64,000 nucleotides of DNA from Bradyrhizobium sp. SK17 (GTDB taxonomy: Bacteria > Pseudomonadota > Alphaproteobacteria > Rhizobiales > Xanthobacteraceae): NCBI RefSeq assembly GCF_002831585.1, contig NZ_CP025113.1, forward strand, positions 5,905,001 to 5,969,000. The letters are read 5' to 3'. The translations under genes were made by a program, and so were the position numbers. The notes under the pieces were generated by a model. The model ran no database searches and was not told the DNA's origin. It saw nothing but the letters and a program-made list of their open reading frames with translations. Shown here piece after piece: positions 13,230 through 38,428 of this stretch (position 1 is the stretch's first letter; the number at the start of each line of letters is the position of its first letter).

Positions 13230-13231
13230 CC

Positions 13232-13915: not shown

Positions 13916-14964
13916 CACCGACCTTCCGCAAAGCCGGGAGGCCGGCTTTCCTCAACCGTGCCGTTCCGGGTTTCCGTAAATCCGGCTTGCCGCTTCTCCT
14001 GCTTTGCACGTCGGCGCTGGCGGGCTGTGCCGGACACACGCCACCGCCCGAGATTTCCTATGACGATGCCGCGCCCGCCGTCATCGCCGCCGATCCGCCG
14101 AAACCCGTGCGGGTCGTGGAGCTACCGAAGCCACTCCCGCTGCCCGGCCAGTTGAAGCCCGTCGACAAGGACGGCAAGCCCGAGCCGGAACCGACCGATC
14201 CGGCCGCGCGCGTCAACCAGGCCAACGCCGCCGCGCGCGTCCAGCCGGTGCGCAACGGCTTTATCAATTCGATGCAGGTTTATCCCTTCGTCGATGGCGC
14301 GCTCTATCAGGTCTACGCCTCGCCGGGGCAAATCACCGACATCGCGCTTCAGCCCGGCGAGCAGCTCGTCGGCTCCGGTCCCGTCGCTGCTGGCGACACG
14401 GTGCGTTGGATCATCGGCGACACCGAGAGCGGTGTTGGCGCGGCCAAGCAGGTCCATATCCTCGTGAAGCCGACGCGCGCCGAGCTGATGACCAATCTCG
14501 TCATCAACACCGACCGGCGCACCTATCACATGGAGCTGCGCGCTACGCCCTCGACCTACATGGCGTCGGTATCCTGGCAATATCCTCAAGACCAGCTCAT
14601 CGCGCTACGCCGGCAGAACCAGCAAGCCGAAGCCGCGCAGCCGGTGTCAAACGGCATCGATCTCGCCCGTGTCAATTTCCGCTACGAGGTGACGGGCGAC
14701 CGCGCGCCGTGGCGGCCGCTGCGCGCCTTCGATGACGGGAGACAGGTGTTCATCGAATTTCCACGCGGAATCGGCCAGGGCGAGATGCCACCCCTGTTCG
14801 TCGTCGGACCGGAAGGCGACACGTCCGAACTGGTGAACTACCGGGTGCGCGGCAACTATATGATCGTCGACCGCCTGTTCGCCGCAGCCGAACTGCGCTT
14901 CGGGTCCGGCAAGAGCCAGAAGCGCGTCCGCATCTCCCGCACCGATGGGAGGCCGGCATCGTGA
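13912..14964 (+). CDS. trbG: Conjugal transfer protein TrbG (VirB9-like)
   Basis: This is a periplasmic/outer-membrane channel protein of 350 residues. An unusually long basic N-terminal region (about 22 residues) precedes the signal sequence LPLLLLCTSALAGCAGH, whose LAGC looks like a lipobox, so it may be a lipoprotein. The VirB9-like body includes YQVYASPGQITDIALQPGE and the C-terminal YMIVDRLFAAAELRFGSG. The start overlaps the trbF stop and the stop overlaps the trbI GTG start. Confidence 0.94.
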   Translation: MTPTFRKAGRPAFLNRAVPGFRKSGLPLLLLCTSALAGCAGHTPPPEISYDDAAPAVIAADPPKPVRVVELPKPLPLPGQLKPVDKDGKPEPEPTDPAARVNQANAAARVQPVRNGFINSMQVYPFVDGALYQVYASPGQITDIALQPGEQLVGSGPVAAGDTVRWIIGDTESGVGAAKQVHILVKPTRAELMTNLVINTDRRTYHMELRATPSTYMASVSWQYPQDQLIALRRQNQQAEAAQPVSNGIDLARVNFRYEVTGDRAPWRPLRAFDDGRQVFIEFPRGIGQGEMPPLFVVGPEGDTSELVNYRVRGNYMIVDRLFAAAELRFGSGKSQKRVRISRTDGRPAS

Positions 14965-16220
14965 GCGACGAACTCGAACCCGAAAAGCAAGAAGGTCGGG
15001 GGCCGACGGATGAAGCCGGGCCGGAGACTCCGGCCGAGGATGGCGCCCGGCCGCTGACCGGCGAGCCGGCCGCGACCATGCGGCTACGCGCCGAGCCGCC
15101 GCGGGTGACGCGCCTTTCCCGAAAGGTGCTGGCTGGATTGGGTCTCGCCGCAAGTCTCGGTGTTGGTGGCGCTCTGATCTATGCGCTTCAGACCCGTCAT
15201 CAAGGCCAGGGTCAGGAACTCTATTCCACGGACAATCGCTCGACACCTGACGGTCTCGCTGGCCTGCCGAAGGACTATTCGGGCGTGCCGAAGCTCGGCC
15301 CGCCGCTCCCCGGCGATCTTGGCCGCCCGATCCTCAACGCACAGAATGGCGGCCCCGTGCCGGCGATCGGCGCGCCCACAACGGGACCCGTAGGACCCAG
15401 CCCGGAGGAACAGCGCCGCGCGCAGGAGCTGGAAGCAGCGAGGACCGCGCGTCTGTTCGCGTCCACGGAAACGCGGCCCGCGAGTAACGCGACCGCCGGC
15501 CAGACTGCGTCAACTATCGCGCCGCAATCGGATCTCACCGGCCTCGGACTCGCGCCGCAACCGGCGACGCCTTCGGCGCAGGACCGCCAGCTCGCGTTCC
15601 TCAATCAGGCGCCGGACAAGCGCACCGTCTCGCCGGATCGCATCGCTGCGCCGGCGTCGAAGAACGTGCTACAGGCCGGCGCGGTCATCGCGGCCGCGCT
15701 CATCACCGGCATCCGCTCCGATCTCCCAGGCCAAATCACCGCGCAGGTGACCGAAAACGTCTATGACAGCCCGACCGGCAAGATCCTGCTCGTGCCCCAG
15801 GGCACCCGCCTCATCGGACAATATGACAGCGGGATCGCCTTCGGTCAGCGACGCATTCTCCTCGTCTGGAACCGCCTGATCTTCCCCAACGGCCGCTCCA
15901 TTGTCTTGGAGCGTCAACCCGGCGCCGACTCAGAGGGCTATGCCGGCCTTGAGGACGGTGTGGACTACCATTGGGGCGAACTGTTCAAGGCCGCAGCGCT
16001 TTCCACTCTCCTCAGTGTCGGCGCCGAGGCCGGCACATCCGGACAGGAGAGCGACATCATCCGTGCGCTCCGCAATGGCGCGTCTGACAGCATCAACCAG
16101 ACCGGCCAGCAGATTGTCCAGCGCCAACTCAATATAGCGCCGACGCTCACAATCCGGCCGGGTTTCCCCGTCCGCGTCATCCTTACGCGCGATCTAATGC
16201 TCGAACCTTATGGGAGCTGA
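14961..16220 (+). CDS. trbI: Conjugal transfer protein TrbI (VirB10-like)
   Basis: This protein of 419 residues spans the envelope and links inner and outer channel rings. The acidic cytoplasmic start is followed by one membrane segment near residues 55-75 (LAGLGLAASLGVGGALIYAL), a proline-rich linker and the VirB10 barrel domain (LLVPQGTRLIGQYDSGIAFGQ). It ends PGFPVRVILTRDLMLEPY, typical for TrbI. The start is GTG at 14961, overlapping the trbG stop. An internal QGTRLIGQYD motif is intact. Confidence 0.95.
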   Translation: MSDELEPEKQEGRGPTDEAGPETPAEDGARPLTGEPAATMRLRAEPPRVTRLSRKVLAGLGLAASLGVGGALIYALQTRHQGQGQELYSTDNRSTPDGLAGLPKDYSGVPKLGPPLPGDLGRPILNAQNGGPVPAIGAPTTGPVGPSPEEQRRAQELEAARTARLFASTETRPASNATAGQTASTIAPQSDLTGLGLAPQPATPSAQDRQLAFLNQAPDKRTVSPDRIAAPASKNVLQAGAVIAAALITGIRSDLPGQITAQVTENVYDSPTGKILLVPQGTRLIGQYDSGIAFGQRRILLVWNRLIFPNGRSIVLERQPGADSEGYAGLEDGVDYHWGELFKAAALSTLLSVGAEAGTSGQESDIIRALRNGASDSINQTGQQIVQRQLNIAPTLTIRPGFPVRVILTRDLMLEPYGS

Positions 16221-19767: not shown

Positions 19768-21018
19768 TCAGAAGAGGATGCCGGTCTCCACCAGGGCGCG
19801 GACCTGATCGCGCTGGTTAAAGTCGCGGCCGAAGCCGGATCCGGGTTGAAGGTGGCCAATCCCGGTGTAAGACAGCTCGCCACGCGCGAAGAACACGCCC
19901 TTCTGGTATGTCGGAGTAATGGTGAACGACCATGCGTCGCTCTTTGCGCCGTAGAGCAGGTTGGTCGGCGTGCAGTTGGCGTCCGCCCCGCACGTTCCGC
20001 CCGTTGTCTTCAGATACTCGGCGCGGGCGCCGAGCGACCATTCACTGTTTAGCGCGTATTTGACCAGCAGCGCGCCGCCATAGGTGTCGGCCGAGCGAAT
20101 GATGCCGAGCTGATCATCACGCCCGACGTGGCTGTATTGCAGATAGGGGGTGAGCGTCAGCGGACCGCTGGTGTAAGTGTAGATGAGATTGAAGATACTG
20201 CTGTTGTTCTGAGCGAGGGGCGTCGCCACTGACGACTTGTCGCTCCGCGATAGGCTGCCGGCGCCGACGAAGCTGATCGAGTTCGACGCGTCGATCGCAT
20301 AGCCCAACATGCCCGAAAGCCAGTTGAGCTTGCCGGAAAAATAGCCGTCGTTGAGCGAGACCGCCGCGGAGAGCGGCCCCCGCGCATAATTGATCTGCAC
20401 GCCGCGGCTGATGGCCGGCTCCTGATTCCAAAGGAGGCCGCGTTCGATGTTGACGTTCTGAAAGGTGAAGGTCGATTCCGCTCCCACCATTGTCGGCAGC
20501 AAACCAGCCATGACCGTCAGCTCCGGCGTGATCACCCCCTTCGCGTAGGCGACCGGAACAGGACCAAACAACTGGTCCGTCGCCTTGGTCGCTTGCAGAT
20601 AGGACGAGCCCAGCGACGGCAAGGAATATGCCCCCGCCTGAATGTAAAACTGCAAAGGCCCCTGAGTCGTCTGGATCTCGATCTGTCCGTTACTCAGATC
20701 GACGAACCCATCCTGATTGCCGATCCCGCCGGCATGGCTTGCGTGAGTCTGAAGGCCGCCGATCCCGCTCACCTGGCCGGAGATGGCGACCGATCCGAAC
20801 GGACCGGCGTCGACCGTGAGGGGGTGGGGGTTTGGGGCGAGCGGCCCGGAGAAGCTAGGACTGGGAAGCGGGTCCGCGTTAGCGACGCCGGCCCAAGAAA
20901 CGGCACCGCAACTGCCCAGCAAGAGGAGCACCCACAAGGCTGGACCGCCGAGGCGGCGACATCCGGAATGTCGAGCAGCACACAGAACAGGCGATGGGTG
21001 TGATAGCGGGCTTATCAT
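19768..21018 (-). CDS. Outer-membrane beta-barrel protein (OmpL/BBP2-like porin)
   Basis: This 416-residue protein has a signal sequence (ALWVLLLLGSCGAVSWAGVANA) and then many alternating amphipathic strands rich in Tyr, Gly and Ser (FNLIYTYTSGPLTLTPYLQY). It ends in a terminal Phe (VETGILF), as expected for an outer-membrane barrel. It resembles the putative porin family with PF07642-like features. The ATG at 21018 is chosen over that at 21027 because AAGGGA lies about 9 bases ahead of it. It probably lets small solutes pass the outer membrane. The gene lies near a LysR gene and the K+ uptake operon, so a link to salt or nutrient uptake is possible. Confidence 0.8.
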   Translation of the reverse strand: MISPLSHPSPVLCAARHSGCRRLGGPALWVLLLLGSCGAVSWAGVANADPLPSPSFSGPLAPNPHPLTVDAGPFGSVAISGQVSGIGGLQTHASHAGGIGNQDGFVDLSNGQIEIQTTQGPLQFYIQAGAYSLPSLGSSYLQATKATDQLFGPVPVAYAKGVITPELTVMAGLLPTMVGAESTFTFQNVNIERGLLWNQEPAISRGVQINYARGPLSAAVSLNDGYFSGKLNWLSGMLGYAIDASNSISFVGAGSLSRSDKSSVATPLAQNNSSIFNLIYTYTSGPLTLTPYLQYSHVGRDDQLGIIRSADTYGGALLVKYALNSEWSLGARAEYLKTTGGTCGADANCTPTNLLYGAKSDAWSFTITPTYQKGVFFARGELSYTGIGHLQPGSGFGRDFNQRDQVRALVETGILF

Positions 21019-21096
21019 TAGGTGCATTCCCTTTGCGTGAAGGTCAATGCACGCAAGAAGTAAGAGGAAGGGCGTAAAATCGGCACCTTATCTTCC

Positions 21097-21134: not shown

Positions 21135-22103
21135 CTACGCGGAGAACGTAGATTTCGCTGAGTCTGCAATGAGCTGCGAAGTGCGGGAGTCTCCCGTTGC
21201 AAAGCCGTCGCGCACCTTGGCCAAGGTGTTGGCCACGCTTAAGAAGCGCCGGAAAGCAGGATTATCATTCTCATCCGACCATATCCCGCAGAACGGAATG
21301 AAGCATCCAGTCAGGGGACGATACTCAACGCCGGCAAATCGCGCTTCTACAACGGAGTCGCTCGCCAAGGTAATGCCGCGTCCACAAGCGACGAGCTGCA
21401 TCAAGGTTTGACGAGACACGCTGTCACGCAGAATGTCGGGGCGGTGGCCAAGCGCGGAGAGATTGCGAAAAAGGAAGCTTTCTATATCCCTCCCCGGCGC
21501 AACTTCAGTCACTATGAAGCGCCTATAACGTATGTCATCGAAAGAGATTTCCGATTGACGTGCAAGGGGGTCCCCTTGTGCCACAACAACGTATACCTGT
21601 TCCGTCCAGAAGCGAACGGAATTGAAGCCTGCGACTTCAAGGGGCTCAGTCACGAATGCAATATCAAGCTCATGACGACGTATCGCCGGGATGAGTTCGA
21701 TATGGTCGCCCTCGACGAACTCGAGTTGAACCTCGCTGTGATGCTTACCGAATCGGGCAATCAGCTCCGCAACGAAGCCGGTAGCCAAAGAAGAAAAAAG
21801 GCCAATCCGGATAACGCCGCTTCCCCCGCGCCCGATCGCGCCAACCTCTCGGATAGCATACTCAATTTGCGTCAGCGCACATTCCGCCCTCCGGACGAAA
21901 TTCTCTCCGGCCTGCGTAAGAAGAACGCCCGAGCGCCGCCGGATGAAAAGACTGGAACCGAGCGCGTCTTCTAAATCCCGAATTTTCCGGCTGATCGTCG
22001 ACTCCCGCACGCCGAGCTTGCTAGAAGCTCTTCTCAAACTCCCTTCCTCGGCGGCCGTCACGACAAAGCGAAGCTGCCGAACCTCGACGTTGCATTTCCG
22101 CAT
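21135..22103 (-). CDS. LysR-family transcriptional regulator
   Basis: This 322-residue protein has an N-terminal LysR helix-turn-helix (RQLRFVVTAAEEGSLRRA, then LGVRESTISRKIRDLE) and a periplasmic-binding-like effector domain from about residue 95 (GVIRIGLFSSLATGFVAELI). It is divergent from the kdp operon with about 510 bases between, and upstream of the porin gene on the same strand. LysR proteins usually act on a divergent neighbour, so kdpF or the porin could be targets. The inducer is unknown. Confidence 0.92.
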   Translation of the reverse strand: MRKCNVEVRQLRFVVTAAEEGSLRRASSKLGVRESTISRKIRDLEDALGSSLFIRRRSGVLLTQAGENFVRRAECALTQIEYAIREVGAIGRGGSGVIRIGLFSSLATGFVAELIARFGKHHSEVQLEFVEGDHIELIPAIRRHELDIAFVTEPLEVAGFNSVRFWTEQVYVVVAQGDPLARQSEISFDDIRYRRFIVTEVAPGRDIESFLFRNLSALGHRPDILRDSVSRQTLMQLVACGRGITLASDSVVEARFAGVEYRPLTGCFIPFCGIWSDENDNPAFRRFLSVANTLAKVRDGFATGDSRTSQLIADSAKSTFSA

Positions 22104-22614
22104 AGATCCGATCAGTTTGCCGAGCGGCTTAGATTGAGATGGCCGCGTCGAAGCCGCGGTTCATTTCGGCCTTGCCCGAGATTGTCGTGTGATATGTAGT
22201 GGCATAAACGTATAACTGCGTCGTAGGCGATCGCGTATAAGTCCGGTGCAGCGTTTTTTCCGCTAGCATAAAAACGGCGCAAAATTCCGTACCTCTAGGA
22301 AATTGCCCTCCGTCGGCTGTTGGCCGAGCGCGCCGCGACCGCAGTATTCGCGGTGAACCAGGTTTACCCCTGCTGCATTTTCTGATGTCTTTACACCGTC
22401 CTTACGTCTTGGCGTAAAAACTCAGCACCACTCTGACATGCGGCGCTCTACATCCATCACAGCATTCCAAGCTGAAAATGGAGCCAGCACGCATGCTCGA
22501 CACTCTCCCATCACTTAAAGCCCGGCCGCCAGCGAAGCGATTGGCAGCCCACTCGCCCTCGCTGATCAGCGCTCCGCGCTTTCTCATTCGCTCTCAATCC
22601 TATGGAGGTCAGCC
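22104..22614. other. Noncoding region between LysR gene and kdp operon
   Basis: I find no convincing gene in these 511 bases. The stretch must hold promoters for the LysR gene and for kdp. It is less GC-rich than the coding sequence in parts (for example around 22250-22290). A candidate KdpE site is listed separately at 22390. A 61-residue minus-strand frame (22402-22587) lacks any recognisable feature. Confidence 0.6.
22390..22406 (+). promoter_or_regulatory. Candidate KdpE-type binding site
   Basis: TTTACA (22390-22395) and CTTACG (22401-22406) are separated by 5 bases. KdpE sites in other bacteria are T-rich half-sites of this kind with similar spacing. It lies about 210 bases before kdpF, which would allow a promoter in between. 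The similarity is loose and untested. Confidence 0.25.
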
Positions 22615-22710
22615 ATGGCCGCTGCCGCGATGACCTGGCTCGCCGGTCTCTGCGCCGCCGGCCTCACGATTTACCTGTTCTATGCTCTCGTGAAGCCAGA
22701 GCGCTTCTGA
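22615..22710 (+). CDS. kdpF: K+-transporting ATPase subunit KdpF
   Basis: This short gene encodes 31 residues, with a single membrane segment ending LFYALVKPERF. The YxLxxPExF-type end is the hallmark of KdpF. KdpF is thought to stabilise the KdpABC complex. A good GGAGGT site lies 6 bases before the ATG. Confidence 0.8.
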   Translation: MAAAAMTWLAGLCAAGLTIYLFYALVKPERF

Positions 22711-22746
22711 GGCTGGCAATCGCAACATTAAAACTCGGTGACAACT

Positions 22747-22830
22747 ATGGGCGACCTCATTTTCGTAGCTGTGACGCTTGTTTTCTTCGCAACCACGGCA
22801 GGGTTCATCATCGCCCTGGATCGGATTTGA
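22747..22830 (+). CDS. Small single-pass membrane protein in kdp operon
   Basis: The frame from the ATG at 22747 encodes 27 residues, [19 protein letters not shown] then FIIALDRI. It is one hydrophobic segment with an acidic start and a basic-aspartate end. Similar very short frames ending in (D/E)RL or (D/E)RI sit near kdpA in other alphaproteobacteria. It lies between kdpF and kdpA, 14 bases from kdpA, so it is probably translated with them. The function is unknown, and it may be a second small subunit. Confidence 0.6.
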
Positions 22831-22843
22831 GGGGGCGCTCGTC

Positions 22844-24547
22844 ATGACTGAAGACATCACACAGTTTGTAATCATACTCGCGATCATGACTGGACTGGTC
22901 GTGGTCCTCGGCAAGTGGATGACGCACATGTTCACGAGCCCCGCCGACAACATTGTCGAACGTGGCACCTATCGCATTCTCGGCGTCGATCCGGCGGAGA
23001 AGATGTCCTGGAAACGCTATGGCATGGTGCTGCTGCTCAGCAACGCCGCCATGATGTTGCTCGGCTATCTCGTCCTTCGCCTGCAACAATATCTGCCGGG
23101 CGACACGCTCGGGCGCGCGTCGCAGACGCCGGATCTGGCCTTCAACACCGCCGCATCCTTCATCACCAACACCAACTGGCAGTCCTATTCGGGCGAATCC
23201 AGTCTTTCGAACTTCTCGCAGATGGCGGTCATCACCTTCCTGATGACGGTCAGCGCGGCGACAGGCGTGGCCGCGGCAGGCGGCTTCATCCGCGGGCTCA
23301 GCCGCAAGACCTCGGCGGACATCGGCAACTACTGGGTCGACTTCACCCGCGTCGTCTACCGCCTGTTCCTGCCGCTCTGCTTCGTCATGGCGCTGGTCTA
23401 CGTCTGGCAGGGAATGCCGCAGACGCTGATGTCGGACACGATCGTCACGACGCTCGAAGGCATGAAGCAGCAGCTCATCATCGGGCCGGTCGCCAGCCTT
23501 GAATCGATCAAGCACATCGGGACCAACGGTGGCGGCTTCTTCGGCATGAACGCCGCCCACCCATTCGAGAACCCGACCCCGCTTACCAACACGCTGCACA
23601 TCCTCAGCATGCTGCTGATCCCCTCGGCGCTGACCTACACGTTCGGTGCGATGATCCTGCGCCGCAAGCAGGGCTGGGCCTTCTTCGCGGCCTTCCTGAT
23701 CATGTTCGTCGCCTTCCTTGCGCTGATCTACAGCGCTGAACGTGCCGGCAATCCGCTGCTCGCCACGCTCGGCGCCGACCAGGCCCAAACCGAGATCCTC
23801 GGCGGCGGCAACATGGAGGGCAAGGAGCTTCGCTTCGGCATCGCTCAGACCAGCCTGTTCGCCACGACCACCACCGCGGCGACGACCGGTTCGGTCGACG
23901 CGATGCATTCCTCGCTGACCCCGCTGGGCGGCCTGGTGCCGATCGCACAGATGATGCTGAACAACGTGTTCGGCGGCGATGGCGTCGGTCTCATCAACCT
24001 CGTCACCTACGCGATCCTGACCGTGTTCCTTGTCGGCATGATGATCGGTCGCACGCCCGAGTTCCTCGGCAAGAAGGTCGAAGCGCGGGAGATGAAATAT
24101 GTGATGCTCGCGGTACTGGCGCATCCGTTCAGCATCCTGGGCTTCACGGCGCTCGCCTGCCTGATGCCTTCGACCCTCGATAGCCTGGCCAACACAGGGC
24201 CGCACGGCTTCAGCGAGGTGCTCTATGCCTACACCTCCGGCACGGCCAACAATGGCTCGGCCTTCGCCGGCCTCAACGCCAACACGCCGTTCTTCAACAC
24301 GACGATCGGTCTCGCCATGCTGGTCGGGCGATATCTCACTCTGCTGCCGATGCTGGCGGTCGCCGGCGTGATGGCCGCCAAGAAAACCGTGCCGGCTGGC
24401 CCGGGCACTCTGTCGACGGCGACGCCGCTGTTCACCGGGCTGCTTGTCTTCGTGATCATCGTCGTCGGCGGCCTGACCTTCCTGCCGGCGCTCGCCCTCG
24501 GCCCCATCGTCGAGCATCTGCTGATGCTCGCGGGCACGACCTTCTAA
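22844..24547 (+). CDS. kdpA: K+-transporting ATPase subunit KdpA
   Basis: This is the K+-selective channel-like subunit of 567 residues, with about ten membrane segments and repeats containing the filter residues, such as [20 protein letters not shown] near the middle. It imports K+ when external K+ is scarce, together with KdpB, KdpC and KdpF. The frame is open further upstream, but the ATG at 22844 gives the expected N-terminus. It runs into kdpC with an 11-base gap. The full family length is present. Confidence 0.96.
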
Positions 24548-24558
24548 GGACAGATCCC

Positions 24559-25239
24559 ATGCGAGAGATATCCAAAACCACCAATACGCATGCGTCGGCC
24601 GGCCCTCTTCTGGGCGGCCTCACGCGCCCGGTCCTCGTCTCCGCCGTGTTCTTCATGGCGGTCACCGGGATCGCCTATCCGCTGGCGACGACCGGCGTCG
24701 CGACGCTGTTCTTCCCCGCACAGTCGCGAGGAAGCATCGTGACGGCCGACGGCAAGGACGTGGGCTCCCGGGTCATCGGCCAATATTTCACCCGGCCGGA
24801 CTATTTCCATGGCCGGCCCAGCACGACCTCCGGAACAGATCCCAACGATCCGTCCAAAACGGTCGACCAGCCCTATAACGCCGCCGCCAGCGGCGCGAGC
24901 AATCAAGGCGCGATCAGCAAGAAGCTGATCGAGGCAGTGACGGAACGGACCGCGGCCTATCGTGAAGAGAATGGCCTTGCCGCCAACGCGCCCGTGCCAA
25001 TCGATGCTGTCACCGCGTCTGGATCGGGCCTCGATCCGCATATCTCGCTCGCCAATGCGCGATTGCAGGTTGCCCGAGTCGCCAAGGCGCGGGGCCTGTC
25101 CCCCGACAAAGTGATGGAGCTCGTCGACCAGAATACGAGCGGTCGCCAACTCGGCGTCCTCGGCGATCCCAGAATCAATGTTCTCGAACTCAATCTCGCG
25201 CTGGATGCGGCGGCCCCCGCCCGTCCGGCCGCGCAATAA
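24559..25239 (+). CDS. kdpC: K+-transporting ATPase subunit KdpC
   Basis: This 226-residue protein has one N-terminal membrane segment (PVLVSAVFFMAVTGIAYPLA) and a periplasmic domain with DPHISLANARLQVARVAKARG and ending INVLELNLALD, typical for KdpC. It stabilises the KdpA-KdpB complex and improves K+ binding. Its place here is unusual, because it lies before kdpB; in most bacteria it follows kdpB. Confidence 0.95.
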   Translation: MREISKTTNTHASAGPLLGGLTRPVLVSAVFFMAVTGIAYPLATTGVATLFFPAQSRGSIVTADGKDVGSRVIGQYFTRPDYFHGRPSTTSGTDPNDPSKTVDQPYNAAASGASNQGAISKKLIEAVTERTAAYREENGLAANAPVPIDAVTASGSGLDPHISLANARLQVARVAKARGLSPDKVMELVDQNTSGRQLGVLGDPRINVLELNLALDAAAPARPAAQ

Positions 25240-25254
25240 GAAAGCGGTGCCATC

Positions 25255-27336
25255 ATGACACAGTTTGATGCAGCCGCGCCTCACAGCGCAGCGATCGGCA
25301 CCGGACCCAAGCCGATCAATTGGGCGTCGGTAATCGGCCAGGCGTTCAGCAAGCTCTCCCCGCGGGTGCAGCTGAAGAACCCGGTGATGTTCGTCGTCTA
25401 TCTCGGCAGCATCGTCACGACGCTGCTCTGGATCCAGGCGCTGCGCGGACAGGGCGAAGCCTCGGCCGCGTTCATTTTCGCCATCGCGATCTGGCTCTGG
25501 TTCACGGTGCTCTTCGCCAATGCGGCCGAGGCCCTGGCCGAGGGCCGCGGCAAGGCGCAAGCTGATGCGCTACGGGCCACGCGCCAACGGGTGATCGCCC
25601 GGATGCTCAAGGAGCCCACCCGTGAGAGCGAATCCTGGCCGCAGCCGAGTGATGAACTCGACGTTGGCGCCTACGTCCTGGTCGAGGCCGGAGAGATCAT
25701 TCCCGCCGATGGCGAGGTCATACAAGGCGCGGCGTCGGTCGACGAGTCCGCGATTACCGGCGAATCCGCGCCCGTCATCCGGGAATCGGGCGGCGACTTC
25801 TGCTCCGTCACCGGCGGCACGCGCGTTCTTTCCGACTGGATCATCGTGCGGGTGACCGCGCGGCCCGGCGAGGCCTTTCTCGACCGCATGATCGCGATGG
25901 TGGAAGGCGCCCAGCGCGGCAAGACCCCGAACGAGGTCGCGCTCACCATCCTGCTGGTCGCGCTCACCCTGATCTTCCTTCTCGTATGCGTGACCTTGAT
26001 GCCGTTCTCGAGCTTCGGCACCATCATGAACGGGTCCGGATCGGTCGTGACGATCACGGTTCTGATCGCGCTTCTGGTGTGCCTGATCCCGACGACGATC
26101 GGCGCCCTGCTCTCGGCGATCGGCATCGCGGGAATGAGCCGGATGATGAAGGCCAATGTGCTCGCCACGTCCGGCCGCGCCATCGAAGCCGCCGGCGACG
26201 TTGACGTGTTGCTCCTCGACAAGACAGGCACGATCACACTCGGAAACCGCGAAGCGACCAAATTCCTTCCGGCGCCTCAGGTGACGGAGCGGGCGCTTGC
26301 CGACGCGGCCCAGCTTGCATCACTCGCGGATGAAACGCCCGAGGGCCGCTCGATCGTGGTGCTGGCGAAGAACGCCTTCGCGCTTCGCGGCCGCGAGCTG
26401 CACGGCGCGGAAGCGCTCCCCTTCAGCGCCCATACCCGCATGAGCGGGATCAACATCGACGGCCGGCAGATCCGAAAGGGCGCCGCCAGCGCCATTCGCG
26501 CGCATGTCGAGGCGATGGGTGGCGTGTTCCCGCAGGAGGTCGCCAAGATCGTCGACGAGGTCTCCCGCCGTGGCAGCACGCCGCTGGTCGTCAGCGACGA
26601 TGTCCGTGTCCTTGGCGTGGTCGAACTCAAGGACATCATCAAGGGCGGCATCAAGGAGCGTTTCGCCGAACTGCGCGGCATGGGCATCAAGACCGTGATG
26701 ATCACGGGCGACAACAAGTTGACCGCGGCCGCGATCGCCGCCGAGGCCGGCGTCGATGACTATCTCGCCGAGGCGACGCCGGAGGACAAGCTGAGGCTGA
26801 TCCGCGAGTACCAGGCCGAAGGCCGCCTCGTCGCCATGACCGGCGACGGCACCAACGACGCGCCGGCGCTGGCCCAGGCCGACGTTGCGGTGGCGATGAA
26901 CAGCGGAACACAGGCCGCCAAGGAGGCCGGCAACATGGTCGACCTCGACAGCAACCCGACCAAGCTGTTGCGCGTCGTCGAGGTGGGCAAGCAGATGATC
27001 ATGACCCGCGGCGCGCTGACCACGTTCAGCGTCGCCAACGATCTGGCCAAATACTTCGCCATCATCCCCGCCGCCTTCGTCGCGACCTATCCGCCCCTGG
27101 CCGTGCTCAATGTCATGGGGCTTCACAGCCCGGCTTCGGCGATCCTGTCGGCAGTGATCTTCAACGCCTTGATCATCGTCGTCCTGATCCCGCTTGCCTT
27201 GCGCGGCGTCAAGTATCGGGCCGAACCGGCCGACCGGCTGCTCAGCCGCAACCTGCTGATCTATGGTTTGGGCGGGATCATCGTGCCGTTTATCGGTATA
27301 AAGCTGATCGACGTCGTGCTGACCCCCTTCTTCTGA
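25255..27336 (+). CDS. kdpB: K+-transporting P-type ATPase subunit KdpB
   Basis: This 693-residue P-type ATPase subunit is phosphorylated at the Asp in DKTGTIT (about residue 322) and drives K+ import. Also visible are [11 protein letters not shown], containing the TGES actuator motif and the regulatory Ser site, [17 protein letters not shown] for the hinge, and several membrane segments. The start ATG at 25255 is 15 bases after the kdpC stop. It is intact and of full length. It sits third in the operon, after kdpC. Confidence 0.97.
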
Positions 27337-27385
27337 TGAGGATCGGGAAGCCGAACAAGGCGAAAGCCGAAGGTTATTGACGACC

Positions 27386-30073
27386 ATGAAAGATCAGCGA
27401 CCCGATCCCGACGCACTTCTGGAGGTCGCGACGGATGAAAGCCATCGCTCCAAACGCGGACAACTGAAGATTTTCTTCGGCGCCTGCGCAGGGGTCGGCA
27501 AGACCTTCGCGATGCTCAACGCCGCCCGCCAACTCCAGGCGGACGGGGTGCCCGTCGGGATCGGGATCGTTGAGACCCATGGCCGCAAAGACACCGAAGA
27601 GCTGATCCAGGGTCTTCCGGTGCTGCCGCGCAAGACGATGAGCGGCAACGGCAAGCCCACGACCGAGTTCGACCTCGATGGTGCGCTCTCATCAGGGTAC
27701 AAGCTGCTGGTTGTTGACGAACTGGCCCACACCAACGTCGCAGGCAGTCGCCATGCCAAACGCTGGCAAGACGTCGAGGAACTGCTCGACGCCGGCATCG
27801 ACGTCTTCACCGCCCTCAACGTCCAGCACCTGGACAGTCTCAACGATATCGTCGGCGGCATCATTGGCATCCGCGTTCGCGAGACGGTCCCCGACCGTAT
27901 CTTCGACGCTGCAACCGACGTCGTCCTGGTCGATCTGCCCCCGGACGATCTCCTCGCGCGCATGAACGCGGGCAAGGTGTACCTGCCGGTTTCGATCGAG
28001 CGGGCCCGACAGAATTTCTTCCGGCGCGGCAACCTGATTGCGCTGCGCGAGCTTGCGCTGCGGCGCGTCGCCGACCGGGTCAATTCGGACGTGCGAACCT
28101 ACCGGGTGTCGCATGCCATCCGCACCGTATGGCCCACCCAGGACCTGCTCATGGTGTGTGTCAGGGCCGACCGCTCGCAGGAAAAGCTTGTCCGCGAGGG
28201 CACCCGCCTCGCCCAGCGTCTGCAAGCCAAATGGATCGTCGTCCACGTCGACCAGCCCTATCGCGGCGATGACGCCCAAGCGCGTGGTTCGCTTCTGGAG
28301 ATCGCCGCCGCGGCCCAGGCGGCCGGCGCCGAATTCGCCAACATCCCCGGCCAGGATGTCGCCGAAACCCTGCTGGATTATGCACGCAAGCGCAATGCCA
28401 CCAAGCTCATCCTCGGCAATCCCGCCGGTCGACAATTCATCCCGTTCAAGCCGCGCCTTCAGGAGCGTATTGCGCGCGCCAATCCGGAAGTCGGCCTGAT
28501 CATCCTGAGTGTCGACGCCGCCCCTGAAGCGCACCAGTCCACAATGGCTGATGAACCGCAGGGCTACGCACGCGCCCTCGCGATCGCAACCCTGGCCTGC
28601 GGCGTGACGACAGCGGCGGCCGCCTGGCTGTTGCGCGTTTTCGACCTCTCCAACATCGTCATGCTCTTCCTCATGACCGTTGTGTTCGTCGCCATGCGGC
28701 TGGGGCGCCTCGCCGGCGCCTGGGCGGCACTGTTGTGCGTCGCCTGCTTCGACTTCTTCTTCGTCGAACCGCGGCTGTCCTTCGCCGTCACCGACACGCA
28801 ATATGTCTTTACCTTCGCCCTGATGCTGGTGGTCGCGCTTGTCATCAGCCAGCTCGCCGCACGCATGCGCTCGGAGGCACGGTTTGCCCGCGCCGGCGAA
28901 CGTCGCGCCTCGGCGCTCGCGCGCGTCGCGCGCGAGCTTTCGAGTGCGATCAAGGTCGAACAGGTGATCACGGTATGCCGGGACGCAATCTCGCCCCTGT
29001 TCGGCGCACGCATCATTCTCCTGGTGCCGGACGATAGAGACCGCCTTTTACCGATGCAGGACGCCGCCCTCGTGGATTTGTCGGTGGCGCAATGGGCGTT
29101 CGATCATTCCCAGGAGGCCGGGCGCGGCACCCAGACGCTGGCCGCCGCCGAGGCTCTCTACCTGCCGCTGAAGGCGTCGATGGCGACCAGGGGTGTGCTC
29201 TGCATTCTCCCGATCGACACGCCTCTATCAAGCAATCCCGACGATCGCCGGCTTCTCGACGCCTGCTGCTCGACCATCGGTCTTGCGCTCGAGCGCATTC
29301 ACTTCGTCGAAGTGGCGCAAGATACCCTGGTGCGGATGGAAGGCGAAAAGCTCCGTAACGCCCTTCTGTCGGCGGTGTCTCACGATCTGAAGACACCATT
29401 GACCGCGATACGCGGCCTCGCCGAAACGCTTGAGCATGGGAAGGGGCTTCCCGAGGACGAAAGAAGCGATCTGGCCCGCTCGATCCGCGTCCAGGCCGAC
29501 GAACTGAAACGCCTCGTCAGCAATCTTCTCGACCTGGCACGCATGCAAAGCCAGGGCGTGCGCCTCAACAAGGAATGGCATTCGTTGAGCGAGATCGTCG
29601 GAAGCGCCCTGGCGCAGTCTGCGTCTCTGCTGGCGCCAAGGTCGATCCGAACCAATCTTCCGCCCGAGCTCCCGCTCGTCGAAGTAGACGCCGCTCTCAT
29701 CGAGCGGGTGCTGATCAATCTCTTCGACAATGCCGCCAAATATACGCCGACCTCGGCCGCTATCACGGTGCGCGCGGGGACATCGGGCGAGTCCATCTAC
29801 CTCGTGGTCGAGGACGATGGACCGGGTTGGACGGCGGGTGACCCCGAAGCTCTCTTCGAGCCCTTCGTTCGCGGGCAGAAAGAGTCTGCGACTGCGGGCG
29901 TCGGGCTTGGCCTTGCGCTCTGCCGCAGCATTATCTTGGCGCATGGCGGCACCATCCGGGCGGAAGCGCGCAAGCCGCACGGCGCGACGTTCGAGATTCG
30001 GCTGCCGTTGGGCGCTCCGCCCGAGATTGAAAGCGAGATTGTTCATGATCAAGCCGCGCATCCTGATCGTTGA
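27386..30073 (+). CDS. kdpD: Sensor histidine kinase KdpD
   Basis: This is the K+-limitation sensor of 895 residues. The N-terminal KdpD domain has a Walker A-like motif, GACAGVGKTFAM, at about 32-43, followed by a universal-stress-protein-like domain and four close membrane segments near residues 395-500. A GAF-like linker comes next, then the kinase: HisKA H-box VSHDLKTPLTAI (about 664), the N-box FDNAAKYTP (about 780), and G-boxes EDDGPGW and GVGLGLALC. A TTG 9 bases upstream is an alternative start. It overlaps kdpE by 29 bases. Confidence 0.96.
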   Translation: MKDQRPDPDALLEVATDESHRSKRGQLKIFFGACAGVGKTFAMLNAARQLQADGVPVGIGIVETHGRKDTEELIQGLPVLPRKTMSGNGKPTTEFDLDGALSSGYKLLVVDELAHTNVAGSRHAKRWQDVEELLDAGIDVFTALNVQHLDSLNDIVGGIIGIRVRETVPDRIFDAATDVVLVDLPPDDLLARMNAGKVYLPVSIERARQNFFRRGNLIALRELALRRVADRVNSDVRTYRVSHAIRTVWPTQDLLMVCVRADRSQEKLVREGTRLAQRLQAKWIVVHVDQPYRGDDAQARGSLLEIAAAAQAAGAEFANIPGQDVAETLLDYARKRNATKLILGNPAGRQFIPFKPRLQERIARANPEVGLIILSVDAAPEAHQSTMADEPQGYARALAIATLACGVTTAAAAWLLRVFDLSNIVMLFLMTVVFVAMRLGRLAGAWAALLCVACFDFFFVEPRLSFAVTDTQYVFTFALMLVVALVISQLAARMRSEARFARAGERRASALARVARELSSAIKVEQVITVCRDAISPLFGARIILLVPDDRDRLLPMQDAALVDLSVAQWAFDHSQEAGRGTQTLAAAEALYLPLKASMATRGVLCILPIDTPLSSNPDDRRLLDACCSTIGLALERIHFVEVAQDTLVRMEGEKLRNALLSAVSHDLKTPLTAIRGLAETLEHGKGLPEDERSDLARSIRVQADELKRLVSNLLDLARMQSQGVRLNKEWHSLSEIVGSALAQSASLLAPRSIRTNLPPELPLVEVDAALIERVLINLFDNAAKYTPTSAAITVRAGTSGESIYLVVEDDGPGWTAGDPEALFEPFVRGQKESATAGVGLGLALCRSIILAHGGTIRAEARKPHGATFEIRLPLGAPPEIESEIVHDQAAHPDR

Positions 30074-30761
30074 GGACGAAGCGGACATCCGCCGCTTCGT
30101 ACGGATGGCGTTGGAAAAGGAAGGCATGAGCGTCTTCGAGACGGCCACCGCCGAGGATGCCCGGCTCAACGCGGGTAGCCGAAAACCCGACCTCATGATC
30201 GTGGACCTCGGCCTACCAGACGGCGACGGCAAGATGCTCATTCGAGACGTGCGAAGCTGGATCTCGGCGCCGATCATCGTCCTGTCGGCGCGGGACCGGG
30301 AAACCGAGAAAGTCGAGGCACTCGACGCCGGGGCCGACGATTATCTCGTCAAGCCGTTCGGCGTGCCGGAGCTTCTCGCCCGTGTCCGCGCCCAGCTACG
30401 CCGAACCAGCGCGGTATCGGATGGGGCCAAGGCTTCCGCTCTCGTTCGTTTCGGTCAGGTCGCCATCAACCTCGCGACACATGAGGTTACGCGAGACGGC
30501 AAGGCTGTGCATCTGACACCGAATGAGTTTCGCCTGCTGACGGCGCTGATCCGCGGGCATGGCAAGGTGCTGACGCATCGCCAATTGCTTTTGGATGTGT
30601 GGGGACCAGGCTACGCAGAACGCGCGCATTACATTCGCATCTACATGGCCCAGTTGCGGCAGAAGCTCGAGGACGATCCATCTCAGCCCGTTCACCTCAT
30701 TACCGAACTGCAGGTCGGATATCGCCTCTCGGGTCTGGAGCTCGATTCGCCACAGAAATAG
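30045..30761 (+). CDS. kdpE: Response regulator KdpE
   Basis: This 238-residue OmpR-type regulator has a receiver domain with the acidic pair ILIVEDEAD, a phosphoacceptor Asp in MIVDLGLPDGDG (about residue 54), the conserved Lys in YLVKPFG, and a C-terminal winged helix (HLTPNEFRLLTALIRGHG ending LQVGYRL). It is the expected activator of the kdp genes. The start ATG at 30045 lies inside the end of kdpD, and the short overlap suggests coupled translation. Confidence 0.95.
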   Translation: MIKPRILIVEDEADIRRFVRMALEKEGMSVFETATAEDARLNAGSRKPDLMIVDLGLPDGDGKMLIRDVRSWISAPIIVLSARDRETEKVEALDAGADDYLVKPFGVPELLARVRAQLRRTSAVSDGAKASALVRFGQVAINLATHEVTRDGKAVHLTPNEFRLLTALIRGHGKVLTHRQLLLDVWGPGYAERAHYIRIYMAQLRQKLEDDPSQPVHLITELQVGYRLSGLELDSPQK

Positions 30762-34612: not shown

Positions 34613-34996
34613 TTCCATACCTTCGCCCACGGGCCGGACTACGTCCTCGATGGAATTGCCCCAAACAGCGCTCCAGACTCCTCGACAACCGCGGGTTGAC
34701 CCGGTCGAGCTGAGCCCAATCGCTGAAGGTGGGTGGTCGGAACCGAACCGCCACTCCGTTCGGAACCGGATTTTGAAAGGAGAGCGGGTTCGATCGGAAA
34801 GAAATTACACGGGCGGTGGCGCCTTAAACAAGAACCGAAGGGTCGGCGACGCTCCTGGACGACGCTTACGCTTTGAGACCACCCGTCCGATTTACACGCT
34901 ATAATCTGATATTACCGCACACGTTCACGCGTGGGCTTCAAAGCGGAAGATCTATCGCCTTCTATCTCCACAAGAGCAAAGAAGTGGAGATACGGT
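34613..34996. other. Noncoding region before the alpA-like gene
   Basis: I see no convincing gene in these 384 bases. They hold a short direct repeat, TCGGAACCG (near 34738 and 34759), and a TATAAT word at 34900-34905, about 92 bases before the AlpA start. That word could be a -10 element, but no well-spaced -35 box is seen. Confidence 0.5.
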
Positions 34997-35266
34997 ATGA
35001 GCGCTGCCCCGCATGTCGCCCGCAGAACAATCCGTCGGCAGCAGCTACGAGAGATCGTGCCGCTTGCCGACAGCACAATCTACGACATGGAGCAGCGAGG
35101 AGAATTCCCGCAGCGCTTCTATCTTACCTCACGCTGCGTCGTTTGGGACTTGGCAGAGGTCGAAGCCTGGCTCGACGCTCGGCGCAATGCATCTCGCGCA
35201 AATGCCATCAAGCGTGCTCCAAGCCCTGACGTGAGGTTGCGCCGTTCGCGTCCCGTCAAACACTAG
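34997..35266 (+). CDS. AlpA-family DNA-binding protein, candidate excision factor
   Basis: This is an 89-residue protein with a winged MerR-like helix-turn-helix of the AlpA/excisionase group (REIVPLADSTIYDMEQRGEFP, then CVVWDLAEVEAWLDARRNAS), the usual end of that domain. A GGAG site precedes the ATG at 34997. It is convergent with the integrase and overlaps its 3' end by 11 bases. Small proteins of this family next to an integrase often act as recombination directionality factors or as activators of the integrase. Which role applies here is inferred. Confidence 0.85.
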   Translation: MSAAPHVARRTIRRQQLREIVPLADSTIYDMEQRGEFPQRFYLTSRCVVWDLAEVEAWLDARRNASRANAIKRAPSPDVRLRRSRPVKH

Positions 35267-36512
35267 GCTCCAACTCAAGCAACTCCATCGTGGCCGGTAG
35301 CAGCGTTGGTCGATACTTCTGACCCAAAACCCACGCGTCCACTAGATTGGACCACTCCTGCATCATATGGCGACGTTGATGCTCATACTCTGCCTTATTG
35401 TACACACCACGCGATGACCTTCCGTCTTCGTGCGCCAGGCATTTCTCGATCCAGTCGCTGTTGAAACCCATCTCATTCAACAGGGTCGAACCGGTGCGCC
35501 GAAGATCGTGAACGGTGAAGGGTTCGAGCGGCAACCCTTCCTTTTTCGCCCTGACGGCAACCGCAGTCGTGATTCGGTTGAACGTCGCCCGCGACATCGG
35601 TGCGTCAGCATCGTAGCGTGACGGAAGGACATAGCGCGAATTTCCCGCGCAGGTTTTCAACGCGATGAAGATGTCGACGGCCTGCTGCGACAGGTAGACG
35701 TTGTGTGCTTTCGACCGCTTCATTCGCTCCTTGGGTATCGACCATACGGCGTTCTCGAAATCGACTTCATCCCACGTCGCGTCCTGCAGTTCGCTTTTCC
35801 TCACCATCGTCAGAAGGAAGAGTTTCATTCCCAGCCGTATAGTCGGCAGAGTCGGCACATGCTCGAGCTGACCGAGCATGACGCGAATCTCCGCGGGAGA
35901 GAGCGAACGGTCCTTAGGAACGAAGGTCGCGATGGAAGCGGGCCCAACTTCATCCGCCGGGTTGGCGACCTTCTCGCCATGCAGGATCGCGAACGCAAAG
36001 ATCAGCTTCACGATATCCCGCACATGGACGGCCGTGGCTGGAGCGCCGCGCTCCTTCACCTTCCCGCACATCATCCGGAGATCATCAGGCGTGATCTCGG
36101 TCAGAAGCCTGTTTCGAAACGTTGGCAAGATGTCGCGCTCGTAGATCGAGCGCCGCATGGCGCGCGTGCTGTCGGCCATGCGCGACTCCTGGAACCACTT
36201 CTCGCCGAACTCGCCGAACCTCTTCGCCTCCTTCAATCGACGCTTGTCGTGCTGCTTCTCTTGAGCAGGCGACCGTCCCTCTGAAATAGCCCGCTTCGCA
36301 TCGATCAGCTTCTCGCGAGCCCTGGCGAGCGAGAGGCCATCTGGGCCGTATCGACCCAGCGTCAGCGTCTCCCGACGTCCATTGAGGCGGTAGTCGTACC
36401 GGAACACGATCGCGCCCGACGGCTGAACCACGACGTACATACCGTCGCGATCGCTCACCTTGTACAATTTATTCTGTGATCTCAGCGCCTTAATCGCAGT
36501 GTCAGTAAGCAT
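35256..36512 (-). CDS. Tyrosine integrase of the ICE (IntG-like)
   Basis: This 418-residue P4/CP4-57-type tyrosine recombinase inserts and excises the element at the guaA 3' end. The N-terminal arm-binding DUF4102 domain opens LTDTAIKALRSQNKLYKV. Catalytic residues seen are Arg in TMVRKSEL, Lys in KERMKRSKAH, His and Arg in HDLRRTGSTLL, His in CLAHEDG, and a Tyr in GVYNKAEYEHQRR. ATG 36512 is preferred to 36524, as GGAGG lies before it. It is transcribed away from guaA. By analogy with ICEs at guaA in mesorhizobia it would be an IntG. Confidence 0.95.
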   Translation of the reverse strand: MLTDTAIKALRSQNKLYKVSDRDGMYVVVQPSGAIVFRYDYRLNGRRETLTLGRYGPDGLSLARAREKLIDAKRAISEGRSPAQEKQHDKRRLKEAKRFGEFGEKWFQESRMADSTRAMRRSIYERDILPTFRNRLLTEITPDDLRMMCGKVKERGAPATAVHVRDIVKLIFAFAILHGEKVANPADEVGPASIATFVPKDRSLSPAEIRVMLGQLEHVPTLPTIRLGMKLFLLTMVRKSELQDATWDEVDFENAVWSIPKERMKRSKAHNVYLSQQAVDIFIALKTCAGNSRYVLPSRYDADAPMSRATFNRITTAVAVRAKKEGLPLEPFTVHDLRRTGSTLLNEMGFNSDWIEKCLAHEDGRSSRGVYNKAEYEHQRRHMMQEWSNLVDAWVLGQKYRPTLLPATMELLELEPSV

Positions 36513-36829
36513 GGGAGCCTCCAAAACCGTCTAAAATCCGGAGAGAGGCGCCGATTATACCGTCAGGCCAAAACAGGTGATGCTGGAAGCATGATTCCCA
36601 TTTTATATCAGCTTGTTAGCACCAAAAATAATACCGTCAGCAGCTCTCTTAGCCCTGACGGTATAGCGAACTTCCAAATCGAACAAGTTCCCCTATACCG
36701 CCTGCTATACCGTCAAATCGGAGCACTGCCCCTCGATAGACGATGATAGACGGTGATTGGATAGTCGCGATATTTCAATAACTTAATGCGTTCTGTAGCG
36801 TACAAACGGATACTGCCGGAGGGGTAAAA
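36513..36829. other. Integrase-proximal end of the ICE: att arm region
   Basis: These 317 bases lie between the integrase and the last codon of guaA and have no gene. They hold four copies of a TATACCGTCA-like word: 36556-36566, 36630-36640, an inverted copy at 36655-36666, and 36705-36715. A partial copy, CTATACCGCC, starts at 36694. They are probably arm-type binding sites for integrase or AlpA. The composition is more AT-rich than the surroundings. The crossover core should lie at or near the 3' end of guaA, just right of this region. Confidence 0.6.
36556..36715. repeat. TATACCGTCA repeats (three direct, one inverted)
   Basis: The word ATACCGTCA occurs at 36557-36565, 36631-36639 and 36707-36715, and as TGACGGTAT at about 36656-36664. 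Pairing of the inverted copy with the partial copy at 36694 or the copy at 36705 could also give a hairpin. Repeats of this sort beside an integrase gene fit arm sites. Confidence 0.7.
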
Positions 36830-38428
36830 TCATTCCCACTCAATCGTCCCCGGCGGCTTTGACGTCACGTCGTACACCACCCGGTTCACGCCCTTCACCT
36901 CGTTGATGATGCGCGTCGCGGTCTCGCCTAAGAACTTCATGTCGAACTGGTAGAAGTCGGCGGTCATGCCGTCGGTCGAGGTGACGGCGCGCAAGCCCAC
37001 GACGTATTCGTAGGTGCGGCCGTCGCCCATCACGCCGACGGTCTTCACCGGCAGCAGCACCGCGAAGGCCTGCCAGATCGCGTCGTAGAGGCCATGCTTG
37101 CGGATCTGGTCGATATAGACGGCGTCCGCGTTGCGCAGGATGTCGAGCTTCTCCCTGGTGATGTCGCCGGGGCAGCGGATCGCGAGGCCCGGGCCCGGGA
37201 ACGGGTGACGGCCGACGAACACTTCGGGCAGGCCGAGCTCGCGGCCGAGCACGCGCACCTCGTCCTTGAACAATTCGCGCAAAGGCTCGACCAGCTTCAT
37301 GTTCATGCGGGCCGGAAGGCCGCCGACATTGTGGTGCGACTTGATGGTCACCGACGGGCCGCCGGTGAAGGAGACGCTCTCGATCACGTCGGGGTAGAGC
37401 GTGCCCTGCGCCAGGAACTGAGCGCCGCCGATCTTTTTGGCCTCGGCCTCGAACACGTCGATGAACAGGCGCCCGATGGTCTTGCGCTTCACCTCGGGGT
37501 CGGTGACCCCATCGAGCTCGCCGAGAAACTCCTTCGACGCGTCCACATGGACCAGCGGGATGTTGTAGTGGTTGCGGAACAGGTCGACGACGGTCTTGGC
37601 CTCGTCGAGCCGCAGCAGGCCGTGATCGACGAACACGCATGTGAGCTGGTCGCCGATCGCTTCGTGGATCAGGACCGCGGCGACAGCGGAATCGACGCCG
37701 CCGGAGAGGCCGCAGATCACCTTGCCCTTGCCCACCTGGGCGCGGATCTTCTCGATCGCCTCCTCGCGGAAGGCGCGCATGGTCCAGTCGCCGGAGAGCC
37801 CCGCGACCTTGCGCACGAAGTTGCGCAGCAGCTTGGCGCCGTCGGGCGTGTGCACCACCTCGGGGTGGAACATCAGGCCGTAATACTTGCGCTTCTCGTC
37901 CTGGATGATCGCGAACGGCGCGTTCGGCGAAGTGCCGGCGACGGAGAAGCCGGGCGGCATCCTGGTGATGCGGTCGCCATGGCTCATCCAGACCTGGTGC
38001 TTCTCGCCGTGGTTCCAGATGCCGTCAAACAGGCAGCTGTCGGTCTTCACCTCGACATCGGCGCGGCCGAATTCGCGATGGTGTCCGCCCTCGACCTCGC
38101 CGCCGAGCTGGGCCGCCAAGGTCATCTGGCCGTAGCAGATGCCGAGCACGGGGACGCCGGATTCGAAGATCAACTGCGGGGCGCGCGGCGAGCCGGTCTC
38201 GTGGACTGACTCCGGACCGCCGGAGAGGATCACCGCTTTCGGCTTCATCTCCTTGAAGGCGGCCTCCGCCTTCTGGAACGGCACGATCTCGGAATAGACG
38301 CCCATCTCGCGGACGCGGCGGGCAATCAATTGCGTCACCTGGCTGCCGAAATCGACAATCAGAATCTTGTCATGCGCCGAGGCCACGGCGGGCGTCGACG
38401 ATTCACGGGCTGTGTGCTGGGCTGTCAT
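36830..38428 (-). CDS. guaA: GMP synthase (glutamine-hydrolysing)
   Basis: This 532-residue enzyme converts XMP to GMP with glutamine and ATP in purine synthesis. It has a class I glutamine amidotransferase domain with the nucleophile Cys in LGICYGQM (about 98), an ATP pyrophosphatase domain with the [10 protein letters not shown] loop, and a C-terminal dimerisation domain ending [10 protein letters not shown]. The ATG at 38428 is used; upstream extension looks untranslated. The 3' end remains complete although the ICE lies directly beyond it. Inserts here normally restore the gene end. Confidence 0.97.

Follow-up and report, generated by a model that had tools for sequence, protein, structure and literature searches.

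Kdp serves as the textbook example of an ion channel joined to a P-type ATPase. We analysed a 64,000-nucleotide stretch of the Bradyrhizobium sp. SK17 genome (hereafter the window; contig NZ_CP025113.1, G000:C1:5905001-5969000, in a genome of 8.29 Mb) containing a Kdp operon at positions 22615-30761. This operon has the same subunits, regulators, and catalytic and filter motifs as Escherichia coli KdpFABC/KdpDE (PDB 6hra) but differs from the canonical F-A-B-C arrangement in its gene order, kdpF-x-kdpA-kdpC-kdpB-kdpD-kdpE, where x is a small open reading frame (ORF). We consider it probable that the operon is a complete, self-regulated second Kdp system carried by an integrative and conjugative element (ICE) at guaA, that it belongs to one F-x-A-C-B lineage, and that its gene order marks an exchange of KdpB.

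Several described systems resemble this locus. The kdpBAC genes of Deinococcus radiodurans MP1 (DR_B0083, B0086 and B0087) are reported to be induced when K+ is limiting (PMC5716572). Like the window operon, they have A and C adjacent, a sister KdpA, a KdpC that groups with the A-C-B proteins, and an x-like ORF before kdpA; unlike it, they have kdpB first and of another type, x before kdpF, and a split KdpD, with KdpD-N after kdpC and the kinase and regulator opposite. Kdp as ICE cargo is already published and not new: a 2009 report places it on the Tn4371-like ICEs of Pseudomonas aeruginosa PA7 and Thioalkalivibrio HL-EbGR7 (PMC2789088), and another places it on ICEs of Acidithiobacillus caldus carrying kdpABC, which, as in the window, form an extra Kdp beside the core copy and are written there as kdpABCE/kdpABCF (PMC3826726). 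For Alcaligenes faecalis, the same F-A-C-B order is written as kdpFACB (PMC7643998, PMC11160463), with up-regulation at a carbon-to-nitrogen ratio of 4 (PMC11160463); in their accessible portions, neither paper remarks on gene order, lineage or origin, or on a small ORF. A kdpACB/kdpFACB-type string is also applied to E. coli in PMC10599522.

All seven genes of the window operon lie on the plus strand with every frame open. kdpF (22615..22710, 31 aa) scored above cut-off with both TIGR02115 (34.8 bits, cut-off 26.85) and PF09604 (48.2 bits), and is followed by x (22747..22830, 27 aa), which has one hydrophobic segment and no KdpF match. kdpA (22844..24547, 567 aa), kdpC (24559..25239, 226 aa) and kdpB (25255..27336, 693 aa) scored 653.6 bits with TIGR00680, 204.9 bits with TIGR00681 and 1049 bits with TIGR01497, respectively; KdpA, KdpB, KdpC and KdpF all exceeded the TIGR cut-offs, placing the products in the Kdp K+-transporting P-type ATPase. 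KdpA residues 11-559 could be aligned with 6hra_A, the filter segments TNTNWQ and GTNGGG being readable, and KdpB residues 26-690 with 6hra_B, including TGES and DKTGTIT. kdpD (27386..30073, 895 aa) is full length, with KdpD, DUF4118, GAF, HisKA and HATPase domains, and its end is overlapped by the start of kdpE (30045..30761, 238 aa). These two regulators scored below their cut-offs (953 bits against 1123 for NF007793, and 311 against 325 for NF007820), yet the expected domains are present. An earlier, sequence-only reading of the window had described exactly this order with intact subunits, and its coordinates proved exact and the catalytic and filter motifs kept.

The unusual order was shared by all close relatives. 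A scan with the window KdpC, taking one genome per species, gave 80 loci selected by KdpC similarity. All 45 of the fetched loci with KdpA at least 69% identical to the window's have A-C-B, ruling out a chance or misread order, and the remaining 35 have A-B-C wherever all three genes are visible, with KdpA at most 54% identical. In a KdpA tree of 46 A-C-B and 29 A-B-C rows, the A-C-B rows formed one clade with a Shimodaira-Hasegawa-like approximate likelihood ratio test (SH-aLRT) value of 100 and a warning on one long A-B-C row (L079); in a more careful tree of 43 rows they were again one clade (100/99), and the narrow-set trees recovered one A-C-B clade also for KdpB (99) and KdpC (81). As a wider check, an even sample of 249 genomes across the phylum yielded 81 KdpA places, of which 74 have a kdpB-sized gap between A and C, 4 have A beside C, and 3 could not be judged. 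The four comprise the window, G489 and G377 (both with KdpA 72% identical) and G532 (44%), and no KdpA identities in this sample fell between 57% and 72%. G532 (locus L127) was rejected as an independent A-C-B case, its true order being B-A-C-D-E and its KdpA distant (43-44%); this KdpA falls outside the clade of Deinococcus and A-C-B proteins, so that G532 represents a second, probably independent A-C adjacency.

Within Bradyrhizobium, KdpA was found in 243 of 265 genomes, whereas a full-length A-C-B-type match occurred in 2 of the 265, namely that of the window and G107, whose KdpA places coincide with those of the genome of L009, Bradyrhizobium sp. Ai1a-2; another six, in which the best match was weak and partial (G134, G136, G153, G155, G170 and G177), were left out of judgement. 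A-C-B is therefore not a common order of the genus. In an even class sample, none of 384 other genomes reached E <= 1e-190 for a window-type KdpA, a threshold that fragments would escape. The proposal that the order marks a distinct Kdp lineage was thus borne out by the single KdpA clade, and the circumstance that would have spoken against it, an order common in the genus with a Kdp tree following the species tree, was not found. In most genomes A-C-B accompanies a standard Kdp as an additional system: of the 40 genomes searched among the 45, 33 also encode another KdpA with 40-55% identity to that of the window. The idea that A-C-B is a plasmid trait in general was discarded: plasmid records with KdpA numbered 459, and in 20 of them it was at least 60% identical to the window's. 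Nine of the 12 matches listed are Deinococcus records, two are Burkholderia replicons of more than 3 Mb, and one is a Salmonella plasmid. On the Salmonella enterica plasmid pSA20083039.1 (L087), the A-C-B kdp genes lie between IS110 and IS903 copies near arsenic genes, with a divergent regulator pair; a near-mode search of 20,395 E. coli records gave no match to this kdpACB.

Pairwise identities and phylogenies pointed to separate histories of the subunits. The window KdpA is 66-68% identical to Deinococcus KdpA from plasmid records (L212 and L213) and 46-47% to that of two A-B-C loci, L215 and L216, of a family (f35) that we take to be enterobacterial from its E. coli-like KdpF. The window KdpB, in contrast, is 61-63% identical to the Deinococcus proteins and 72% to those of L215 and L216. 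Three Deinococcus records are annotated as kdpB-kdpA-kdpC, and one of them also has a kdpF annotated between the first two genes. Trees of a wider, hand-chosen set of 51 rows (18 A-C-B, 4 B-A-C and 29 A-B-C) joined A-C-B with the three Deinococcus rows for KdpA and KdpC, leaving the fourth B-A-C row, G532, apart; for KdpB, A-C-B was joined with A-B-C rows, mostly non-alphaproteobacterial and including f35. The careful trees gave the same picture. For KdpA, A-C-B plus Deinococcus was supported at 100/99, and grouping A-C-B with five A-B-C rows was rejected by the approximately unbiased (AU) test (p-AU 3.2e-5). For KdpB, A-C-B grouped with five non-alphaproteobacterial A-B-C rows at 100/98, and its grouping with Deinococcus was rejected (p-AU 9e-51). 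KdpC followed KdpA, with A-C-B plus Deinococcus at 100/99. Thus, KdpA and, less firmly, KdpC appear to group with Deinococcus and KdpB with non-alphaproteobacterial A-B-C operons, a finding that is new here. Judged from these sequences, at least one exchange of KdpB is needed to explain the conflict between the KdpA and KdpB trees.

ORF x is a second feature of the lineage. It was present in 49 of 49 A-C-B loci, with 27 codons in 46 and 30 codons in 3, and ends just before kdpA (13 bases 5′ of it in the window, with similar spacing elsewhere); its ratio of nonsynonymous to synonymous polymorphism (pN/pS) over 18 representatives was 0.40. A simple small-ORF filter placed kdpF upstream of x in 37 of 48 A-C-B loci. 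A profile built from 46 A-C-B sequences of x was run on the 12,286 reading frames that 61 other loci contain. Its 42 top-ranking matches, of which 24 had E < 0.1, all share the strand of kdp and lie 194-554 bases before kdpA; the best match at any other place had E = 3. In the 33 non-A-C-B loci where simple patterns find both genes, x precedes kdpF, giving x-F there versus F-x in A-C-B, and the x-like ORFs of Deinococcus also stand before kdpF where both were seen. Among 77 upstream stretches from the phylum sample, the A-C-B-only profile found x in 19 at E < 0.05; a widened profile found it in 43, all on the sense strand and with the first antisense match at E = 2.5, a count that leans high, the widened profile being partly trained on loci from the same genomes. 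None of five f35 upstream stretches (L170, L177, L179, L181 and L182) matched the profile at E < 0.05, and a weak match (E = 4) in Azospirillum lipoferum 4B falls in a hypothetical-protein gene directly 5′ of kdpF. Against NCBIfam x gave nothing at E <= 0.1 and against Pfam PSI_PsaJ alone, below cut-off, placing x outside the KdpF family. A literature search for a named extra Kdp small gene returned no description of x, the search being weak and subscription papers mostly outside its reach; the non-annotated KdpF described in PMC8552747 is a different thing. The resident kdp locus of the window's host (L003) has another small hydrophobic ORF, 34 codons long, between kdpF and kdpA; in other loci of the genus, where these two genes are also set wide apart, there could likewise be room for one.

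The conservation of x in A-C-B loci, with a homologue before kdpF in many A-B-C operons, is new here and makes x a candidate fifth, small membrane subunit of Kdp. The main alternative is that x is a translated leader or regulatory upstream ORF, as its tiny size and its position just ahead of kdpA in the window and other A-C-B loci would allow. We regard this as unlikely, while allowing it an appreciable chance: x is under amino-acid constraint and nearly fixed in length, and in A-B-C operons its family members come before kdpF instead of after it, a position unsuited to a kdpA leader.

The A-C-B order itself is best explained, as far as the phylogenies can tell, by kdpB having been exchanged while A and C stayed together as a pair: with kdpB as the movable piece, it would have come to lie after kdpC here and before kdpA in Deinococcus. 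The shortest path to A-C-B would be a local swap of kdpB and kdpC inside an ordinary A-B-C operon, with one history for all subunits, and A-B-C is far commoner (74 of the 81 KdpA places in the phylum sample). We hold such a swap to be improbable, as it is at odds with the strong conflict between the KdpA and KdpB trees, with the KdpA sister group having B ahead of A, and with the x-F of A-B-C operons standing as F-x in A-C-B. We give equally little credence to the possibility that the operon is not chimeric and that hidden paralogy, unequal rates or sparse sampling of KdpB created the tree conflict as an artefact. The careful trees have only 43 rows with weak deep branches, and the KdpB proteins of A-B-C and A-C-B operons are intermixed in them; the plain identities, however, agree with the conflict without any model, and the log-likelihood differences were 100 for KdpB and 196 for KdpA.

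Several points nevertheless count against an exchange of KdpB at the origin of a single lineage. The 43 rows were left after 8, mostly long-branched, had been dropped, and the groups for the AU test were defined after viewing the first tree. The grouping of KdpC with the five A-B-C rows was not rejected (p-AU 0.10). In the best KdpB tree, the five A-B-C rows stood beside the Pseudomonas/Comamonas A-C-B branch, so that A-C-B was not one clade; a single A-C-B clade was not rejected (p-AU 0.118) and was present in the narrower first KdpB tree. The small-ORF filter did not pick up kdpF in 11 of 48 A-C-B loci, mostly Pseudomonas, and F-x is thus shown for 37. The direction of transfer could also be read in more than one way: A-C-B may have taken its KdpB from the A-B-C group or given its own to that group, or Deinococcus may have changed. 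The Deinococcus link, the KdpA/KdpB conflict and the conservation of x were all absent from the earlier reading.

With an exchange of KdpB as the preferred explanation, an A-C pair like that of Deinococcus, where the order is B-A-C, would have come to work with a proteobacterial kdpB of the A-B-C type, and the placement of the newly paired kdpB after kdpC would have created the A-C-B order. The pump would work as in E. coli, with K+ bound by KdpA, ATP hydrolysed by KdpB via DKTGT, K+ passing between KdpA and KdpB, and KdpC and KdpF assisting, and the operon would be switched on by KdpD/KdpE at low K+. A conserved block upstream of kdpF (22388..22429, plus strand), a TTTACACC-type repeat, is more strongly conserved than any other part of an alignment of 7 chosen A-C-B upstream regions, and we take it as a candidate KdpE site for its apparent likeness to the E. 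coli site. Together with full-length KdpD and KdpE, this block suggests ordinary induction at low K+. The sequences show the genes, their order, the clade, the tree conflict, the likely ends of the element and the recent spread of related ICEs; transport activity, induction, the exchange direction and the standing of x as an added small subunit we infer.

A broader interpretation, which we offer tentatively and with somewhat less than even confidence, is that of a mobile chimeric Kdp lineage in which a KdpA-KdpC channel module was re-paired with a foreign KdpB motor and the gene order is the scar, and in which a 27-residue fifth subunit, x, belongs to many non-enterobacterial pumps, so that the E. 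coli model would lack a part. The solved KdpA chains found by sequence search were three near-equal scoring sequences, presumably all from E. coli, and x is a concrete candidate for a missing Kdp subunit. A natural lineage with differing channel and motor histories in one operon would offer ready-made pairs for testing the key KdpA-KdpB contacts, and the A-C-B operon appears to have spread between classes of bacteria while staying one operon.

In the window, the kdp operon is flanked by conjugation genes on one side and, on the other, by an integrase adjoining the 3′ end of guaA; the layout proposed earlier, with kdp as mobile cargo between an ICE trb block and its integrase, held for this element. 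The conjugation block (1738..16220, plus strand) encodes a DUF3363 relaxase, VirD4/TraG, a T2SSE ATPase, TrbE-like protein, TrbL, VirB8/TrbF and TrbI. An IS21 pair lies between kdp and the integrase, and an AlpA-type regulator (34931..35266, plus strand; PF05930) precedes the tyrosine integrase (35256..36524, minus strand; PF00589, PF13356 and PF22022) and the integration target guaA (36830..38485, minus strand; GMP_synt_C and GATase). The 10-mer TATACCGTCA occurs in 5 copies in 124 kb (both strands), against 0.04 expected per strand from base composition, and is confined to two places: three copies, one inverted, at 36556..36715, and two, at -40438 and -40250 in window coordinates, at the opposite end of the element. 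Near the latter, at about -40513, lies a diverged guaA-like terminus (IEWE-stop). On the basis of these repeats and the guaA terminus at both ends, the element likely begins near G000:C1:5864487 and runs for about 77 kb up to the end of guaA. It has the relaxase, coupling protein, type IV secretion system, integrase and recognizable ends of an ICE, the ends being putative ones defined by the repeats and the diverged terminus. An exact direct repeat of the guaA 3′ end was sought and discarded, none of 14 bases or more being present in 124 kb, with the diverged terminus at the far end instead. Speaking against this placement, a search of 20 relatives for an empty site found none, the left flank giving short weak matches in only 2 of them. 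The use of guaA as an ICE site has been described for Mesorhizobium (PMC8627217).

We surveyed flanks of at most 10 kb per side using the window's conjugation and integrase proteins as queries. Conjugation genes were found near kdp in 13 of the 45 relatives (L008, L011-L014, L016, L020-L024, L026 and L027), with traG and relaxase alone visible in L012, where the contig ends; a VirB4-family search of 33 genomes gave fitting matches at L008, L011, L013, L014, L016, L020, L022, L026 and L027. As in the published Tn4371-like ICEs, kdp genes are ICE cargo in L011, L013 and L014, here in A-C-B order between traG-trb genes and a DUF3363-type relaxase, and likewise in L012 until its contig ends in traG; the window's ICE, which sits at guaA, may be Tn4371-like to judge from the kinds of its trb/traG and DUF3363-type relaxase genes. 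A trbL-trbF-trbI-small ORF-BBP2-LysR-kdp layout is common to the window, which has two extra genes in between, and to L016, L020-L024, L026 and L027. L020 (Brevundimonas) and L021 (Methylobacterium), from different orders, are identical across 20,609 bases, with mis-binning possible for this pair because L020 is a metagenome-assembled genome (MAG); L023 (Sphingomonas) and L024 (Roseicella) share 99.95% identity over 19.6 kb, and L011 (Castellaniella) and L014 (Stenotrophomonas) 94.1% over 18.0 kb. No MAG label is attached to L021, L023 or L024. From these near-identical segments in different orders, sequence comparison indicates that related ICEs spread recently, across orders, and these data add K+ scavenging to the traits spread in this way by conjugation. 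The window element is 76% identical to L020 over 13.6 kb, and by this measure is an older relative.

No window-type conjugation or integrase match was present within the surveyed flanks of 14 Burkholderia, 10 Pseudomonadaceae, 2 Comamonas and 6 other loci, and the 108-kb kdp contig of Bradyrhizobium sp. Ai1a-2 (L009) gave no VirB4-family match. The idea that the lineage moves with ICEs thus stood for the window element and 13 of the 45 relatives but not for the lineage as a whole, in which the Burkholderia, Pseudomonadaceae and Comamonas flanks were without matches; in the KdpA tree, Burkholderia makes up one branch and Pseudomonas another. That the window's ICE is a remnant with kdp as passive baggage, unexpressed or useless, seems very doubtful: the host has a second Kdp and the IS21 pair lies between kdp and the integrase, but the Kdp frames are intact, the upstream block is conserved, and the near-identical segments across orders point to recent transfer of related ICEs.

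The second kdp locus of the host, L003, has the standard order x′-F-small ORF-A-B-C-D-E and a second KdpC. Its kdpB (L003 10042-12059; G000:C1, minus strand) has an apparent frameshift in a conserved region; the ICE copy may hence be the host's only intact KdpB, a sequencing error being equally possible. One Opitutia contig (L077) also carries two kdp loci, the second with a divergent KdpA (37%) and a KdpB.

Upstream of kdp in the window lie a BBP2 (OmpL-like) porin gene (19768..21027, minus strand; PF07642) and, divergent from kdp, a LysR-type regulator (21135..22103, minus strand). LysR proteins 57-58% identical to the latter are encoded upstream of kdp in L016, L020-L024, L026 and L027. A BBP2 porin gene was found near A-C-B kdp in 10 of the 45 relatives in addition to the window and at none of the 35 A-B-C loci, some of them on short contigs; the mobile unit may therefore supply, besides the pump, a way for the ion across the outer membrane. 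L008 and L010 are without a window-type LysR between the porin gene and kdp. The KdpD proteins of the Burkholderia A-C-B loci L017, L018, L019, L029, L031, L033, L036 and L040 and of the Salmonella plasmid (L087 10726-12687) are without the N-terminal KdpD sensor domain, and a separate N-terminal KdpD piece was not found in the fetched loci of these operons. In L011-L014 and L032 the structural genes are A-C-B, but KdpD/KdpE share only 36-45% identity with those of the window, looking as if these regulators had been replaced separately from the pump.

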